Part shown: one piece after another, positions 1 to 4,268 of the stretch
How the letters are laid out: each line of letters opens with the position of its first letter
How positions within the stretch are numbered: the stretch's first letter is position 1
Source of the DNA: Cruoricaptor ignavus
GTDB taxonomy: Bacteria; Bacteroidota; Bacteroidia; Flavobacteriales; Weeksellaceae
Reading direction: 5' to 3'
NCBI RefSeq assembly: GCF_900141665.1
Contig: NZ_FQYI01000010.1
Coordinates: forward strand, 1 to 64,000
DNA length: 64,000 nucleotides
Made by a program: the position numbers and the translations under genes
The notes under the pieces: generated by a model
The model's database searches: none
What the model was told of the DNA's origin: nothing
Seen by the model: the letters and a program-made list of their open reading frames with translations, nothing else

Positions 1-83
1 TCAAACTCCAAAAACCAATAGAAATATATAAATCAGCAGCATAAAATTCAATTAAGAAACCCTTAAAAGTGGTCTAGTGAAGT

Positions 84-860
84 GTGGGTATTTCATCTAA
101 AACTTCCATTGCTTATAATAAAGAATTGTCCTCTTTGACATTTGATAAAAATAATAATTCTTATTTTCAAGCTTATGACAATTTTAGAAAAGATTCGCTT
201 AAGACTAAAGTTATTATAGATTATGAAAAAAATCAAGTAAAAGGTCCTTTAAAGATTCCTTCATCAGATCGTAATGCAAAATTTAGATCATTAATCATTA
301 AAAGGAATGCAGAGAAAGATGTTATTCAAGAGGAAACGTTTTTCACAAAGACTTTTTCCATTCGATTTCCATGTAAAATTGTTTGGAATCTTAAAAATGA
401 GAAACCTACTGAAAAAATAATGGGATATGATGTGAAAAAGGCAACTTGTAATTTTGGAGGAAGAAAATGGATAGCATTTTATACCAGCGAAATCCCAATA
501 CAAGACGGGCCATATAAATTTTCGGGATTACCTGGATTAATATTGAAAATATTAGACAGCAAAGAAGATTATATTTTTGAAATCAAAGGTATAACAAAAG
601 AAGTCAATAACTTAAAATATAGGAATTTTGGTAATGGTAAGCCGGTAGAACTTTCCCCAGTTAGATGGGAAACTTTTTTAAAAAAATATAAAGAGCAACC
701 ATCTATGATCTTAGAAAATCTTAATACAACCCAAACCACTTATGTAATTAACGGAAAAGATGTTTCAAGTCGTGACGTAAAAGACGAATATAATAAAAAG
801 GAATGGCTGGCATTCAAAAATTTCGAGAATCCTATTGAGGTAGAGCCTTCATGTAAATAA
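84..860 (+). CDS. GLPGLI family protein, 5'-truncated
   Basis: The signature GLPGLI lies near residue 148 in the context YKFSGLPGLILKI, which defines this Bacteroidota family of secreted proteins of unknown function. Family members normally start with a signal peptide and a beta-rich N-terminal part. Here the frame opens on a weak GTG just after an in-frame stop at 78-80, and there is no hydrophobic leader. The front of the gene therefore appears to be lost, and the product is probably not exported. The DNA is AT-rich like the rest of the first 4 kb. A broken DCC-family gene follows 5 bp downstream. The family call is firm; functionality is doubtful. Confidence 0.75.
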   Translation: MGISSKTSIAYNKELSSLTFDKNNNSYFQAYDNFRKDSLKTKVIIDYEKNQVKGPLKIPSSDRNAKFRSLIIKRNAEKDVIQEETFFTKTFSIRFPCKIVWNLKNEKPTEKIMGYDVKKATCNFGGRKWIAFYTSEIPIQDGPYKFSGLPGLILKILDSKEDYIFEIKGITKEVNNLKYRNFGNGKPVELSPVRWETFLKKYKEQPSMILENLNTTQTTYVINGKDVSSRDVKDEYNKKEWLAFKNFENPIEVEPSCK

Positions 861-1227: not shown

Positions 1228-1339
1228 TTTTAGTAATCTGTCCTAATTTATAAATTACGACCTATAACACTTGTAAATTAGGACATTTCAATAAGATACT
1301 TACCTCCTCTAAATAGAAAATCACAAGGTGGGTAATTGT

Positions 1340-1690
1340 GATACCGGTTTTCCAAAAAGAGGGATAAAATAAATACAAATGCAATTGCTTAAGCTGGATA
1401 TTTGAGATACAGCTTCAGTTTAAAGATGGGTAAAAAAGACACTGGTAAAATCAAAAGCTGCGTCATTTAGATGCAGGTTTCCCACAAGGTGTGTAAAAGA
1501 TACAGATTAATGACCTAATTAAAACAGCAATAACATGATTCTCAACTTACATACATGAGATTGAACTTTTTCCAAAGATGAGCAAAAAAGATACGGGAAA
1601 AATCAAAACCTGCTTATTTCAGATACAACCACTTCTAAAAGCTGCATAAAAAAGATACAGCTTCATCACAGACTTGTGTAAAAAAGTCCT
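1340..1690. repeat. Degenerate ~32-bp periodic array with phased A-tracts
   Basis: About eleven imperfect units follow each other at 1340, 1372, 1406, 1438, 1470, 1499, 1531, 1559, 1590, 1622 and 1654, most exactly 32 bp apart. A typical unit starts with GATAC, has a TTC or AAA core, then TGnGT, and ends in AAAAA(A). GATAC is exact in six units. Units at 1438 and 1590 match at about 24 of 32 positions, so there is also a longer repeat of about 152 bp. The period is not a multiple of three and no long frame crosses it, so it is not coding. It is close to three helical turns, so the A-tracts fall on one face of the DNA. Function unknown. Confidence 0.65.
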
Positions 1691-1796
1691 ACCCAATAAA
1701 ATTTCATCGTTATTTTTTCTCTTTATAAGCAAAAACCACATAAAACAGATGCTAAAAGTAAACCTTATGTCCTTTTAAACCTCTGAAAATGAGTTT

Positions 1797-1872
1797 GGCA
1801 AGATGTGTCTTTGTGCCCACGAACTTTTTCAAGTTTTGCGACAAAGACCCTCTTGCCTTTTCTGCGAAAAGG
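1797..1872. repeat. Nested inverted repeats (two hairpins)
   Basis: GGCAAGA (1797-1803) pairs with TCTTGCC (1851-1857), and inside it TCTTTGT (1808-1814) pairs with ACAAAGA (1841-1847). A second hairpin follows directly: CCTTTT (1856-1861) with AAAAGG (1867-1872). In addition GAGTTTGGCA (1791-1800) is the inverse of TGCCAAACTC (1925-1934). Such compact palindromes are common at ends, recombination sites or transfer origins of mobile elements. They also argue that the open frame running through here is not coding. Role inferred only from position next to an excisionase-like gene. Confidence 0.55.
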
Positions 1873-1923
1873 GTGAAAAACTTCGGAACTCAGTTTTTAT
1901 TTTGCAGAAAATTTAGATTTAAG

Positions 1924-2304
1924 ATGCCAAACTCATCCAAACTAAAAGTTTTTAAGCCAACTAATATTCCAAATTCATCCAGAACATTCTTTTTTAAGCC
2001 AACGCCGGAAAACACTATTGTTTTTATTAGATTTCTACTTCAATTTTGCAGTACAGTCAACATACTTACAAAAGAAGATTTTGAAATATTCAAAGAAGAA
2101 TTGTTCGCAGAACTTCGAGAGATGCTTTCTGCCTCAGAAAAGAAAGAAAAACGATGGCTTCGCTCCAGTGAAGTCAAAAAGCTTTTGAATATTTCCTCCG
2201 GTACTCTCCAGAATTTAAGAATTAACGGAACAATAAAATATTCCAAAGTAGGAGGGACATTGTTCTATGATTATCAAGATATTGAAAAACTCTTCAAACA
2301 ATAG
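1924..2304 (+). CDS. Excisionase-like helix-turn-helix protein (HTH_17)
   Basis: The conserved part begins near position 2060 with ILTKEDFEIFKEELF, followed by a charged helix and then the MerR/excisionase-type DNA-binding region: WLRSSEVKKLLNISSGTLQNLR, a winged turn, and YDYQDIEKLF. Such proteins of about 85-95 residues are typical of Bacteroidota mobile and conjugative elements, where they act as small regulators or excisionase-like factors. The start is uncertain: no ATG lies near the family's usual start, and the only in-frame ATGs are at 1924 and 1789, inside repeat-rich DNA. The true start codon may be lost or non-standard. A frameshifted partner regulator follows 21 bp downstream. Confidence 0.6.
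   Translation: MPNSSKLKVFKPTNIPNSSRTFFFKPTPENTIVFIRFLLQFCSTVNILTKEDFEIFKEELFAELREMLSASEKKEKRWLRSSEVKKLLNISSGTLQNLRINGTIKYSKVGGTLFYDYQDIEKLFKQ
1927..2003. repeat. Imperfect 42-bp tandem repeat, two copies
   Basis: Two 35-bp segments, 1927-1961 and 1969-2003, are about 75% alike and lie 42 bp apart. Both begin CCAAA(C/T)TCATCCA and end TTTTTAAGCCAAC. The repeat lies between the nested hairpins and the HTH coding region, in what appears to be untranslated DNA. Confidence 0.55.
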
Positions 2305-2325
2305 AAAAAAACAAACACACAAACG

Positions 2326-2624
2326 ATGAACAAAAATGAAATCTACCTTAGACATCTCACGAACTTTTATGACAGAATAATGATTTGCTGAATCCCACTC
2401 ATATCAGCCTCTATCTTGCTATTTTCCAGTTTTGGAATGTTAATCAGTTCAAAAATCCGATTTATGTTTCCAGAAATGAATTAATGAAACTCAGCAAAAT
2501 ATCTTCGTATACCACTTATCATAAATGCATCAAGGATTTAGAAGCAACGGGCTTAATTGAGTATTTCCCTTCTTATAATCCATCCAAAGGAACGATGATT
2601 AATGTGAGTGTATCTGAAAAGTAA
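2326..2624 (+). pseudogene. Mobile-element regulator fragment, frameshifted and C-terminally short
   Basis: ATG 2326 opens a frame reading MNKNEIYLRHLTNFYDR that stops at 2389. The continuation, LNPTHISLYLAIFQFWN then a winged-helix region with RNELMKLSKIS and TYHKCIKDLEATGLIEYFPS, lies in another frame and ends at 2624. One missing base after about 2387 accounts for the break. Flavobacterial elements often carry this gene directly after the small HTH_17 gene, usually as a longer protein (from memory of the family). Here the C-terminal part after NPSKGT is missing too. It is probably inactive. Confidence 0.55.
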
Positions 2625-2659
2625 AAAACGCACCATGAAAACGCATTTTATTTTAAATA

Positions 2660-2691
2660 TTGCACTTTTATAGTGCGAATTTATATCTTTG
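2660..2691 (+). promoter_or_regulatory. Promoter with operator-like palindrome for the DUF4143 ATPase
   Basis: TATCTTTG at 2684-2691 is an exact flavobacterial -7 box (TAnnTTTG), with TTG at 2660-2662 about 21 bp upstream as the -33 element. The inverted repeat GCACT-TTTAT-AGTGC (2662-2676) fills the spacer, where a bound repressor would block RNA polymerase. The ATG of the ATPase follows at 2705. Confidence 0.6.
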
Positions 2692-2704
2692 TAAAAAAAA
2701 TAGA

Positions 2705-3874
2705 ATGGAAAAACTTTGGGAATATTTCCATAAAATATTGAAAGAAACTGATTCTGCCGCATTTCGTTATATTTACAAAGACATCAATTGGGAGAACAGG
2801 ATGGTTGGTATTACAGGACCGCGAGGAGTTGGCAAAACAACTATGGTTCTGCAACACATAAAGCAAACCCTCAACCTTAATGAAACCCTGTATGTAACTG
2901 CGGAAGATTTTTATTTTGCTGACAACAAACTTTTAGACCTTGCCGCTGAATTTGTAAAACAAGGAGGAAAATACCTCTTCATTGATGAAATTCATAAATA
3001 CAAGGACTGGTCGAAAGAACTTAAACTCATTTACGATTATCATAAAAATTTAAAAATAGTGTTTACAGGCTCCTCTGTTTTAGATATTAAAAAAGGAGCG
3101 GCAGACCTTAGCAGGAGAGCTGTGATGTATCATCTGCAAGGATTATCTTTCAGAGAGTATTTGCAGATATTTCACAACATAGCAGCAGATGTTTATACTT
3201 TACCAGAAGTTTTGGATCATAAAGTTGAGATTCCTGATATAGAACATCCATTGCCTCTATTTCAGGATTATTTGAAGAAAGGCTATTATCCATTTGCACT
3301 GGATGGAGATTTTGAAATTCGCCTTCGGCAGATCATAAACCAGACATTGGAAAGCGATATTCCCATTTATGCAGAAATGAATACGGCAACGGGAAGGAAA
3401 TTAAAGCAACTTTTAGCCATTATCTCAAAGAGTGTTCCTTTTAAACCAAATTTCAGCAGCATTGCCACCGCACTTTCAGCAAGCAGAAATAATATTGCCG
3501 ATTACTGCCTGTACATCGAGGAAGCAGGAATGATAAGCCAACTGCGAAGCCATACAGGAGGTATAAAAGAATTGGGGAAAGTAGAGAAGATTTATCTGGA
3601 TAATACCAACCTCATCTATAATTTAGCAGAAGATACTCCAAATATTGGGAATATTAGGGAAACCTTCTTTTTAAACCAAATGAGGATCAACCACTTAGTG
3701 ACTTCGTCTAATTTTGGAGATTTCAGAATAGATAATATCGATTTTGAAATCGGTGGGAAAAATAAAACTCAGAAACAAGTATTAAACGCTGAAAAGGGAT
3801 TTGTGGTAAAAGATGATATAGAATTTGGATATAGAAACAACATTCCTCTTTGGCAATTTGGAATGTTGTATTAG
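2705..3874 (+). CDS. AAA+ ATPase with DUF4143 C-terminal domain
   Basis: The N-terminal half is an AAA ATPase: Walker A GPRGVGKTT near residue 38, Walker B YLFIDEIH near 94, sensor-1 VFTGSS near 122. The second half is DUF4143, ending in a PD-(D/E)XK-like pattern (DFEIGGKNK). The family is widespread in bacteria and archaea and its cellular role is poorly known. I chose ATG 2705 (MEKLWEYF) because it follows a good promoter; an in-frame extension upstream would have to cross that promoter. At about 389 residues it is full length, the only clearly intact gene in the island remnant. It is flanked by decayed element genes on the left and the tRNA-derived repeat on the right, so it may be cargo. 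Confidence 0.85.
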   Translation: MEKLWEYFHKILKETDSAAFRYIYKDINWENRMVGITGPRGVGKTTMVLQHIKQTLNLNETLYVTAEDFYFADNKLLDLAAEFVKQGGKYLFIDEIHKYKDWSKELKLIYDYHKNLKIVFTGSSVLDIKKGAADLSRRAVMYHLQGLSFREYLQIFHNIAADVYTLPEVLDHKVEIPDIEHPLPLFQDYLKKGYYPFALDGDFEIRLRQIINQTLESDIPIYAEMNTATGRKLKQLLAIISKSVPFKPNFSSIATALSASRNNIADYCLYIEEAGMISQLRSHTGGIKELGKVEKIYLDNTNLIYNLAEDTPNIGNIRETFFLNQMRINHLVTSSNFGDFRIDNIDFEIGGKNKTQKQVLNAEKGFVVKDDIEFGYRNNIPLWQFGMLY

Positions 3875-4131: not shown

Positions 4132-4148
4132 AGTCCCGTCCGGATCGC
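4132..4148 (+). repeat. Attachment-site-like copy of the tRNA-Asp 3' end
   Basis: The 17 bases agtcccgtccggatcgc are identical to 4242-4258, the 3' end of the intact tRNA-Asp gene and one following base. The sequence just to the left does not fold as a tRNA. Duplicated tRNA 3' ends mark integration by tyrosine recombinases. Because the copy lies 5' of the intact tRNA, the simplest model is that an element entered an upstream tandem tRNA-Asp gene and this is its right junction, with 4149-4183 as the old spacer. Confidence 0.6.
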
Positions 4149-4183: not shown

Positions 4184-4257
4184 GATCCGGTAGTTCAGCT
4201 GGTTAGAATGCCGCCCTGTCACGGCGGAGGTCGCGGGTTCGAGTCCCGTCCGGATCG
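4184..4257 (+). tRNA. tRNA-Asp (GTC)
   Basis: A full cloverleaf is present. The acceptor stem is GATCCGG with CCGGATC, the D arm GTTC/GAAT, the anticodon stem CCGCC/GGCGG around loop CTGTCAC (anticodon GTC at 4218-4220), and the T arm GCGGG-TTCGAGT-CCCGT. The discriminator base is G and CCA is not encoded. It lies at the border between the decayed AT-rich segment and core genes. Confidence 0.97.
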
Positions 4258-4268
4258 CGAAAAACAAT

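Follow-up and report, generated by a model that had tools for sequence, protein, structure and literature searches.

Relaxase-less integrative mobilizable elements are recognised as 'iOriT' islands, of which the SGI1-type islands are an example; in the portion of the literature account considered here (PMC11389934), these elements are characterised by an integrase with an attachment repeat, an oriT-like site without relaxase, a helper expected to act in trans and a variable cargo. The Cruoricaptor ignavus locus and its relatives in Weeksellaceae appear to share these traits, but differ in their Bacteroidota hosts, in the helper, expected to be an ICE of Tra type whose relaxase is MOBP-like, in an array of 32-33 bp palindromic units that flanks the oriT candidate, and in the HTH_17 gene and second small gene directly behind the latter; their mobilization is predicted from the sequence. 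The RHH protein PcfF binds inverted repeats and bends the oriT of pCF10 (PMC6514445). In both systems, a small dimeric accessory protein would find its inverted-repeat targets next to the relaxase site, the relaxase site being putative in the present loci; according to the part of that source covered, PcfF sites are short inverted repeats of the oriT itself, whereas the units of the Weeksellaceae loci form an array of their own, with several to about 17 members.

In Agrobacterium, VirC1 promotes relaxosome assembly and the overdrive sequence adjoins the border, as stated in the relevant section of PMC4949242. The overdrive with VirC1/VirC2 resembles the present loci in the placement of an accessory site beside an oriT-like border, and plasmid L112 encodes, along with its relaxase, an ATPase similar to VirC1/ParA. 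Overdrive is not known to be a long 32-bp palindrome array, in which it differs from the Weeksellaceae array with its predicted function. The CTn341-type oriT of Bacteroides, located near the mob operon, is likewise an inverted-repeat oriT of a Bacteroidota ICE with tra genes; the excerpted text (PMC5729914) does not mention an array of the present kind, and the two sites are set side by side by description only. A Chryseobacterium ICE with 17-bp tRNA repeats, ICECleSHZ29, has been described in an article whose consulted part mentions oriT once and in general terms (PMC12561888). A search of the open-licence literature (titles and abstract starts) yielded no description of the site or the array; subscription journals lay mostly outside its scope, and a prior account may exist. 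The iOriT concept is known, and no account was found of a putative oriT with a palindrome array that would be common to ICEs and defence islands.

The array and the leader element in the C. ignavus island

The window, i.e. the whole analysed stretch of 64 kb, is the start of contig C16 of the 2.2-Mb genome. On its forward strand, positions 1326-1690 are occupied by a degenerate array of approximately 32-bp units, each consisting of an imperfect 23-bp palindrome and about 9 bp, with homologous arrays in relatives. The 32-bp periodicity that an earlier note had described for 1340-1690 is real: autocorrelation of 1300-1700 peaked at lag 32 (z 5.3-5.4) and lag 64 (z 4.4), both exceeding the 99th percentile (3.8-3.9) of the per-shuffle maximum (110 lags, 500 dinucleotide-preserving shuffles). 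Among 41 lags tried on the 870 bp that precede the leader element (see below), 32 again scored best, equalled in 1 of 100 shuffles. Instead of the eleven consecutive units originally counted, eight are clear (anchors GATAC/GACAC/GATGC at 1340, 1406, 1438, 1470, 1499, 1590, 1622 and 1654; span 1326-1662), and three are too degenerate to be placed, near 1372 and within 1500-1590 (the gap from 1499 to 1590 measures 91 bp). The best units are 1392-1414 and 1640-1662 (AGCTG...CAGCT); repeat pairs in the region share 67-80% identity over 52-54 nt, and a few pairs are shorter and closer together. Tandem Repeats Finder at score 30 had no entry over the array, and when the complete array served as a DNA query against 99 genomes, including that of C. 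ignavus, the self-match alone was returned; the unit sequences drift, so that profile and lag scans are needed instead of plain DNA searches.

The proposed non-coding nature of the array was borne out, since the longest open reading frame over 1340-1690 comprises 40 aa; a coding repeat was rejected on this ground. A CRISPR array was dismissed as before: the units are degenerate and separated by linkers of about 9 bp, without near-identical repeats and unique spacers. The suggested curvature by phased A-tracts fared less well, as the (crude) phasing score of the array, 59 degrees, lies between the window-wide median of 38 and the 95th percentile of 81; strong intrinsic curvature of the array itself was rejected accordingly. 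The best-phased 330-bp stretches of the window begin at 1601, 1551 and 1501 and overlap the array end and the leader. An imperfect inverted repeat at 1230-1294 (arms 1230-1253 and 1271-1294, 79% complementary), a possible terminator or remnant end, separates the broken DCC1-like gene from the array.

About 100 bp downstream of the array follows a conserved structured DNA element of 126 bp, hereafter the leader (1778-1903, forward strand), which is the oriT candidate; the covariance model recovered it in its own genome with E 8.9e-21 and 101.5 bits, the window leader being itself one of the 23 sequences in the model. Its architecture comprises a stem GCAAGA...TCTTGC with inner stems, then CCTTTT..AAAAGG, then a stem around a CGGAACT loop; in relatives, the order is a CAGAGCTCTG palindrome, GCAAGATGTGTCTTTG...TCTTGCC, a TTTTTTGCAAAAA stem and a stem closing on CGGAACT. 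Folded as RNA, the leader reached z -4.45 in the Chryseobacterium locus L098 and z -2.54 in the window; both-sided change was observed in 5 of 29 predicted pairs, with compensatory changes in one outer stem. Rfam searches were empty both for the window leader (E up to 1) and for those of six further loci (gathering score), and an RNA known to Rfam was rejected. Phage origin was likewise rejected, as neither window 1228-2700 nor the L098 leader stretch matched phage records. Two imperfect 39-bp direct repeats (1920-2000, forward strand; 74% alike) lie between the leader and the HTH_17 gene, and relatives exhibit similar TTCTTTTTTAA / ATTCCA motifs at the same site by eye.

The left part of the island (84-1227) contains as cargo a GLPGLI/Porph_ging gene (Porph_ging 1.2e-8) and a broken gene whose DCC1-like match is weak (0.00089, below cut-off). 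Behind the leader, all on the forward strand as is the left cargo, are located the excisionase/AlpA-like HTH_17 gene (2056-2304; frame open from 1789), in which the ATG opening the L098 frame is lost (AGTACAGTCAAC replaces ATGAGAGTAAAC); a second small gene found behind HTH_17 in relatives (2326-2624), which is winged-helix-like by eye only, has no Pfam or NCBIfam match and is apparently frameshifted; a cargo gene for an AAA_14/DUF4143 ATPase (2705-3874; AAA_14 1.5e-31, PADLOC candidate-defence model PDC-S01 4.6e-29); a 17-bp attachment repeat (attR candidate, 4132-4148) identical to the tRNA-Asp 3' end; and an intact tRNA-Asp(gtc) gene (4184-4258). The genome has just one further identical tRNA-Asp match, at G000:C19:380588-380662; behind it lies a seemingly complete tyrosine recombinase gene (frame open 380899-382159; Phage_integrase 381574-382068), and C19 ends at 382234. 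Based on the 17-bp repeat and on this tRNA-Asp/integrase pair at a contig end, the island most likely runs from C19 into C16 1-4148, which would give the order integrase, cargo, array, oriT-like element, HTH_17, second small gene, AAA_14 ATPase and attachment repeat. The array belongs to an integrative element, as had been surmised, namely an island integrated at tRNA-Asp; that it forms the recombination end of this element is contradicted by the position of the attachment repeat, approximately 2.4 kb away. The last ~95 bases of C19 (382140-382234, from the integrase gene end) are the reverse complement of window 1-95; this match could represent an inverted repeat, an invertible segment or an assembly artefact, and may explain the contig break.

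No relative of MobC, relaxase, ParA, DUF4133 or TraG was detected in the 64-kb window, and the leader-associated relaxase family had no match at E 1e-20 in the assembled contigs of the genome, the C19-C16 junction being unassembled. The apparently frameshifted second gene, the lost HTH_17 start codon, the degenerate units and the lack of a family relaxase in the genome indicate that the window copy of the element is probably inactive or decaying. Further islands have perhaps left remnants in two places: a weak second leader match (G000:C12:27140-27262, E 6e-4), whose contig also bears tRNA-Leu and an integrase, and another HTH_17 gene (G000:C24:1845-2075) near tRNA-Phe and an integrase fragment.

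Association of the leader with relaxase and HTH_17 genes

According to the covariance model, the leader is present in 141 of 296 Weeksellaceae genomes and 20 of 33 genera; an order-wide search recovered it in 30 of 395 genomes, every one of Weeksellaceae, and outside these searches it was encountered on one Sphingobacterium plasmid. Among the matches listed (at least 150 leaders, 114 relaxase matches of E 2.2e-54 or better and 117 HTH_17 matches down to E 1.5e-20), 84 of 150 leaders had a MOBP-like relaxase within 25 kb, in all 84 cases downstream and on the same strand (0.5-2.9 kb in 69, 4-25 kb in 15), 29 had an HTH_17 gene 172-204 bp downstream, and 37 had neither; these counts exclude about 30 weaker relaxase matches, weaker HTH_17 matches and at least one in-range HTH_17 match (G012:C28), and take one relaxase gene as two pieces. 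At the level of genomes, the leader occurred in 89 of 91 with a strong relaxase match (E 1e-90 or better) versus 52 of 205 without one (Fisher p 1.6e-35; leader genomes being the above 141).

In related ICE-like loci and two conjugative-type plasmids, the leader stands upstream of mobC-relaxase-ParA-tra genes. Plasmid L112 (p1) encodes a MobC (PF05713, just over cut-off), then a relaxase and then a ParA; the relaxase matches PF03432 above cut-off, the TraI_MobP and MobP1 models below their cut-offs, and NCBIfam Bacteroid_MobB weakly (4e-36, 125 bits, under the cut-off of 400), and the ParA matches VirC1 PF07015 with 27.0 bits (cut-off 24), a similarity seen in plasmid L112 only. ParA relatives are encoded behind the relaxase in other ICE loci. 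Arrays are likewise located upstream of mobC-relaxase operons; any HTH_17 relative listed for such a contig lies several to tens of kb away. Gaps between leader and relaxase reach 14 kb; in G288, G285, G267 and G299 they amount to 11-14 kb and look as if cargo had been inserted between oriT and mobC. The leader was also found on a 9.8-kb Empedobacter tet(X) plasmid, with no annotated mob gene nearby in a gene table that may be incomplete, and inside a Salmonella IncC resistance plasmid (L114 6001-6091), where the next annotated gene, erm(F), is encoded on the opposite strand. The relaxase gaps of up to 14 kb and this opposite-strand neighbour indicate a cis-acting DNA site rather than solely an mRNA leader.

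The L114 stretch of the Salmonella plasmid resembles the Empedobacter plasmid, and the tet(X) and erm(F) plasmid stretches each contain a second, divergent leader-like sequence in opposite orientation (L113 5779 and L114 10017, both minus strand). In G215, two equal-scoring leaders lie 10.6 kb apart (C1:4544069 and 4554655) near the record end, each followed by opposite-strand recombinase genes.

Period, palindromy and drift of the arrays

A weight matrix of the unit was run over 80 named loci encoding HTH_17 relatives and 31 shorter loci; in a subset of loci it produced clusters that precede the HTH_17 match by about 0.5-1 kb; the cluster of L042 lies about 4 kb past the match. Most units in these clusters conform to ACCTGcgtaaaataga-taCAGGT, which is imperfectly palindromic over 23 bp, and neighbouring units are separated by about 9 bp. 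Spacing is mostly 32-33 bp and the unit sequence varies among elements, while period and palindromy are kept; the closeness to three helical turns remarked on for the window extends to the array type in relatives. Upstream of the 54 leaders preceded by at least 900 bases (closely related loci included), the best of 41 lags fell within 28-36 for 46, in 33 of them significantly (at most 1 of 100 shuffles as good). L100 has about 17 units by eye, the other arrays from several units upward; in L042 (9250-10100), a mixed-unit array (best lag 58) lies upstream of a leader some 4.8 kb after the HTH_17 gene.

With L095 skipped and some random stretches drawn from array-bearing loci, a significant lag of 31-35 was obtained for 16 of 19 HTH_17 loci with leader, 1 of 60 without leader and 6 of 150 random stretches; the lone array among the 60 is that of L085, which does have a leader missed by the pattern, so that the corrected count is 0 of 59. 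These proportions, together with the arrays at mobC loci, indicate that the array follows the leader and not the HTH_17 gene to which the earlier note had tied it; the expected conservation beside homologous HTH genes holds for the subset with a leader and was not seen in the rest. An array of arm-type sites for an excisionase (Xis) was rejected, as arrays follow the leader and not HTH_17 and are present at mobC loci as well.

The relaxase-bearing (ICE-type) loci comprised 52 out of 64 (three had no leader by the pattern, one of these a 100-base stretch, two a short upstream region and seven no relaxase match): the best lag was 32 or 33 in 32 of them and individually significant at 31-35 in 20, in a set that includes the duplicates L112=L161 and L119=L154, the near-identical array statistics of L145/L146/L245, and L221, which yielded no statistic. 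With only 20 of 52 significant, many ICE arrays must be weak or absent. The plasmid stretches L113, L114 and L158 carry the leader and no array by the lag test; such leader-bearing loci of both ICE and plasmid type imply that the array is not strictly required. On the Sphingobacterium plasmid pWB8 (L257 161-510), leader, relaxase and ParA are in the usual order, and AT-rich repeats with best lag 24 (without shuffle control) replace the 32-bp array. Arrays of several Chryseobacterium loci (e.g. L079, L082, L086, L087, L096 and L098) are closely similar, and locus counts therefore overstate the independent cases.

In 117 units of 22 loci, chosen by central [TC]AAAA and spacing only, the outer 5-bp arms were 59% complementary in register versus 10-27% when slid by 1-5 positions. 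The arm sequences differ by locus (ACCTG/CAGGT; AGCTG/CAGCT in the window; CCGG/CCGG; GGGG/CCCC) and are largely complementary throughout; the excess of within-locus (0.59) over cross-locus pairing (0.48, sd 0.055) is modest, about 2 sd. Near-identical units occur in the ICE L153 (33 bp, 98% lag identity) and plasmid L112 (35 bp, 88%), which suggests recent amplification or renewal of the array.

Proposed function and competing explanations

The array is best explained as an accessory portion of the oriT of an integrative mobilizable element without a relaxase of its own, i.e. an 'iOriT' island, a reading to which we assign a probability of roughly 0.75 on comparative sequence grounds. The leader is located where an oriT would be expected, and its oriT status is putative. 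In the proposed mechanism, a dimeric accessory protein from a co-resident ICE would bind the palindromes on one helix face, the foremost candidate being the MobC encoded beside the relaxase and the next a VirC1-like ParA with a partner; the bound protein would help to load the relaxase on the hairpin element, the leader, and the excised island would be nicked and moved by the ICE, from which relaxase and channel would be supplied. The array is probably of the protein-binding type presumed at the outset; HTH_17 is not the likely binder. In 18 loci, unit type correlated with MobC (Mantel r 0.28, p 0.006) and with the relaxase (r 0.415, p 0.0002); the MobC correlation is too weak for the binder to be named and, with that of the relaxase somewhat higher, MobC is not singled out and common descent could explain both. 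A further-reaching proposal, which we put forward tentatively and regard as less likely than not, is that the array serves as a tunable loading platform: a VirC1/ParA-MobC complex encoded by the helper ICE would polymerise on it and hand the relaxosome over to the secretion machine, the fast-drifting unit sequence setting which ICE can mobilize which defence island; if true, the array would constitute a helper-specificity code common to ICEs and relaxase-less defence islands of Weeksellaceae.

Arrangements of RHH proteins with ParA and repeat arrays form the classical partition layout, and Par proteins may serve conjugation as well (PMC4949242). Given this layout and the mobC-relaxase-ParA operon order, the array might be a partition or centromere-like (parS type) site for the ParA of the mob operon, serving maintenance of ICE and island instead of transfer. 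We regard this as rather unlikely, because the array accompanies the leader and relaxase module, the islands having array and leader, and because the L112 ParA has no relative in the 64-kb window or within about 1.5 kb on each side of the HTH-type leaders among L115-L144. A quite improbable interpretation takes the leader as a transcribed structured RNA (attenuator or small RNA) of mob and HTH operons and the array as the operator of its promoter: the favourable fold (z -4.45 and -2.54) and the compensatory changes in one outer stem would be in line with it, but the leader-relaxase distance varies from 0.5 to 14 kb, the next annotated gene of the Salmonella plasmid is on the other strand, and the Rfam searches described above were negative.

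The reading of the earlier note, that the adjacent HTH_17 protein binds the array in an excision or regulatory complex, could draw on the HTH_17 gene at 172-204 bp from 29 of the 150 listed leaders; yet mobC-type loci have arrays without HTH_17 in the stretch examined, leaderless HTH_17 relatives have none (1 of 60, or 0 of 59 after L085 is moved), and the attachment repeat is remote from the array, so that this explanation is largely refuted and very improbable. Least probable of all are decayed plasmid iterons or functionless AT-rich degenerate DNA, to which the low unit identity in the window, the missing Tandem Repeats Finder call and the decaying appearance of the host copy might point; cross-locus comparison already refutes this explanation, since position, period and palindromy recur across loci and the lag identities of L153 and L112 suggest recent array renewal.

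The leader provides a candidate oriT, defined by its sequence, for one family of ICEs and conjugative-type plasmids in Weeksellaceae. Its presence on islands that bear an integrase but no relaxase nearby is a candidate answer to how such islands could move. The spread of the site includes the 9.8-kb tet(X) plasmid and the Salmonella IncC resistance plasmid, and the combination of a conserved period with drifting palindromes raises the question of helper specificity.

Other HTH-type islands have the same gene order as the C. ignavus island. In the 14 genomes searched, an integrase was located 2-38 kb upstream on the same strand for 8 of 10 other HTH-type leaders, a count without chance control; the exceptions are G296, with no integrase on the contig, and G200, with one on the opposite strand. 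A tRNA-Ser or tRNA-Phe gene adjoins the integrase in four of the six retrieved stretches that contain one (G306, G211, G272 and G208; not G241 and G200). A matching 17-bp repeat bounds a 46-kb island in G272 and a 14-bp repeat is present in G211; G306 and G208 exhibited no matching attachment repeat in the stretches examined. In the islands examined, the cargo includes genes known or proposed as candidates for defence against viruses: in five of them, the genes after HTH_17 comprise type I restriction-modification systems in L098 (PADLOC) and L093 (by eye), Vsr and a C5 methylase in L100, Ssp B-C-D in G241, and BREX PglX/BrxC in G208.
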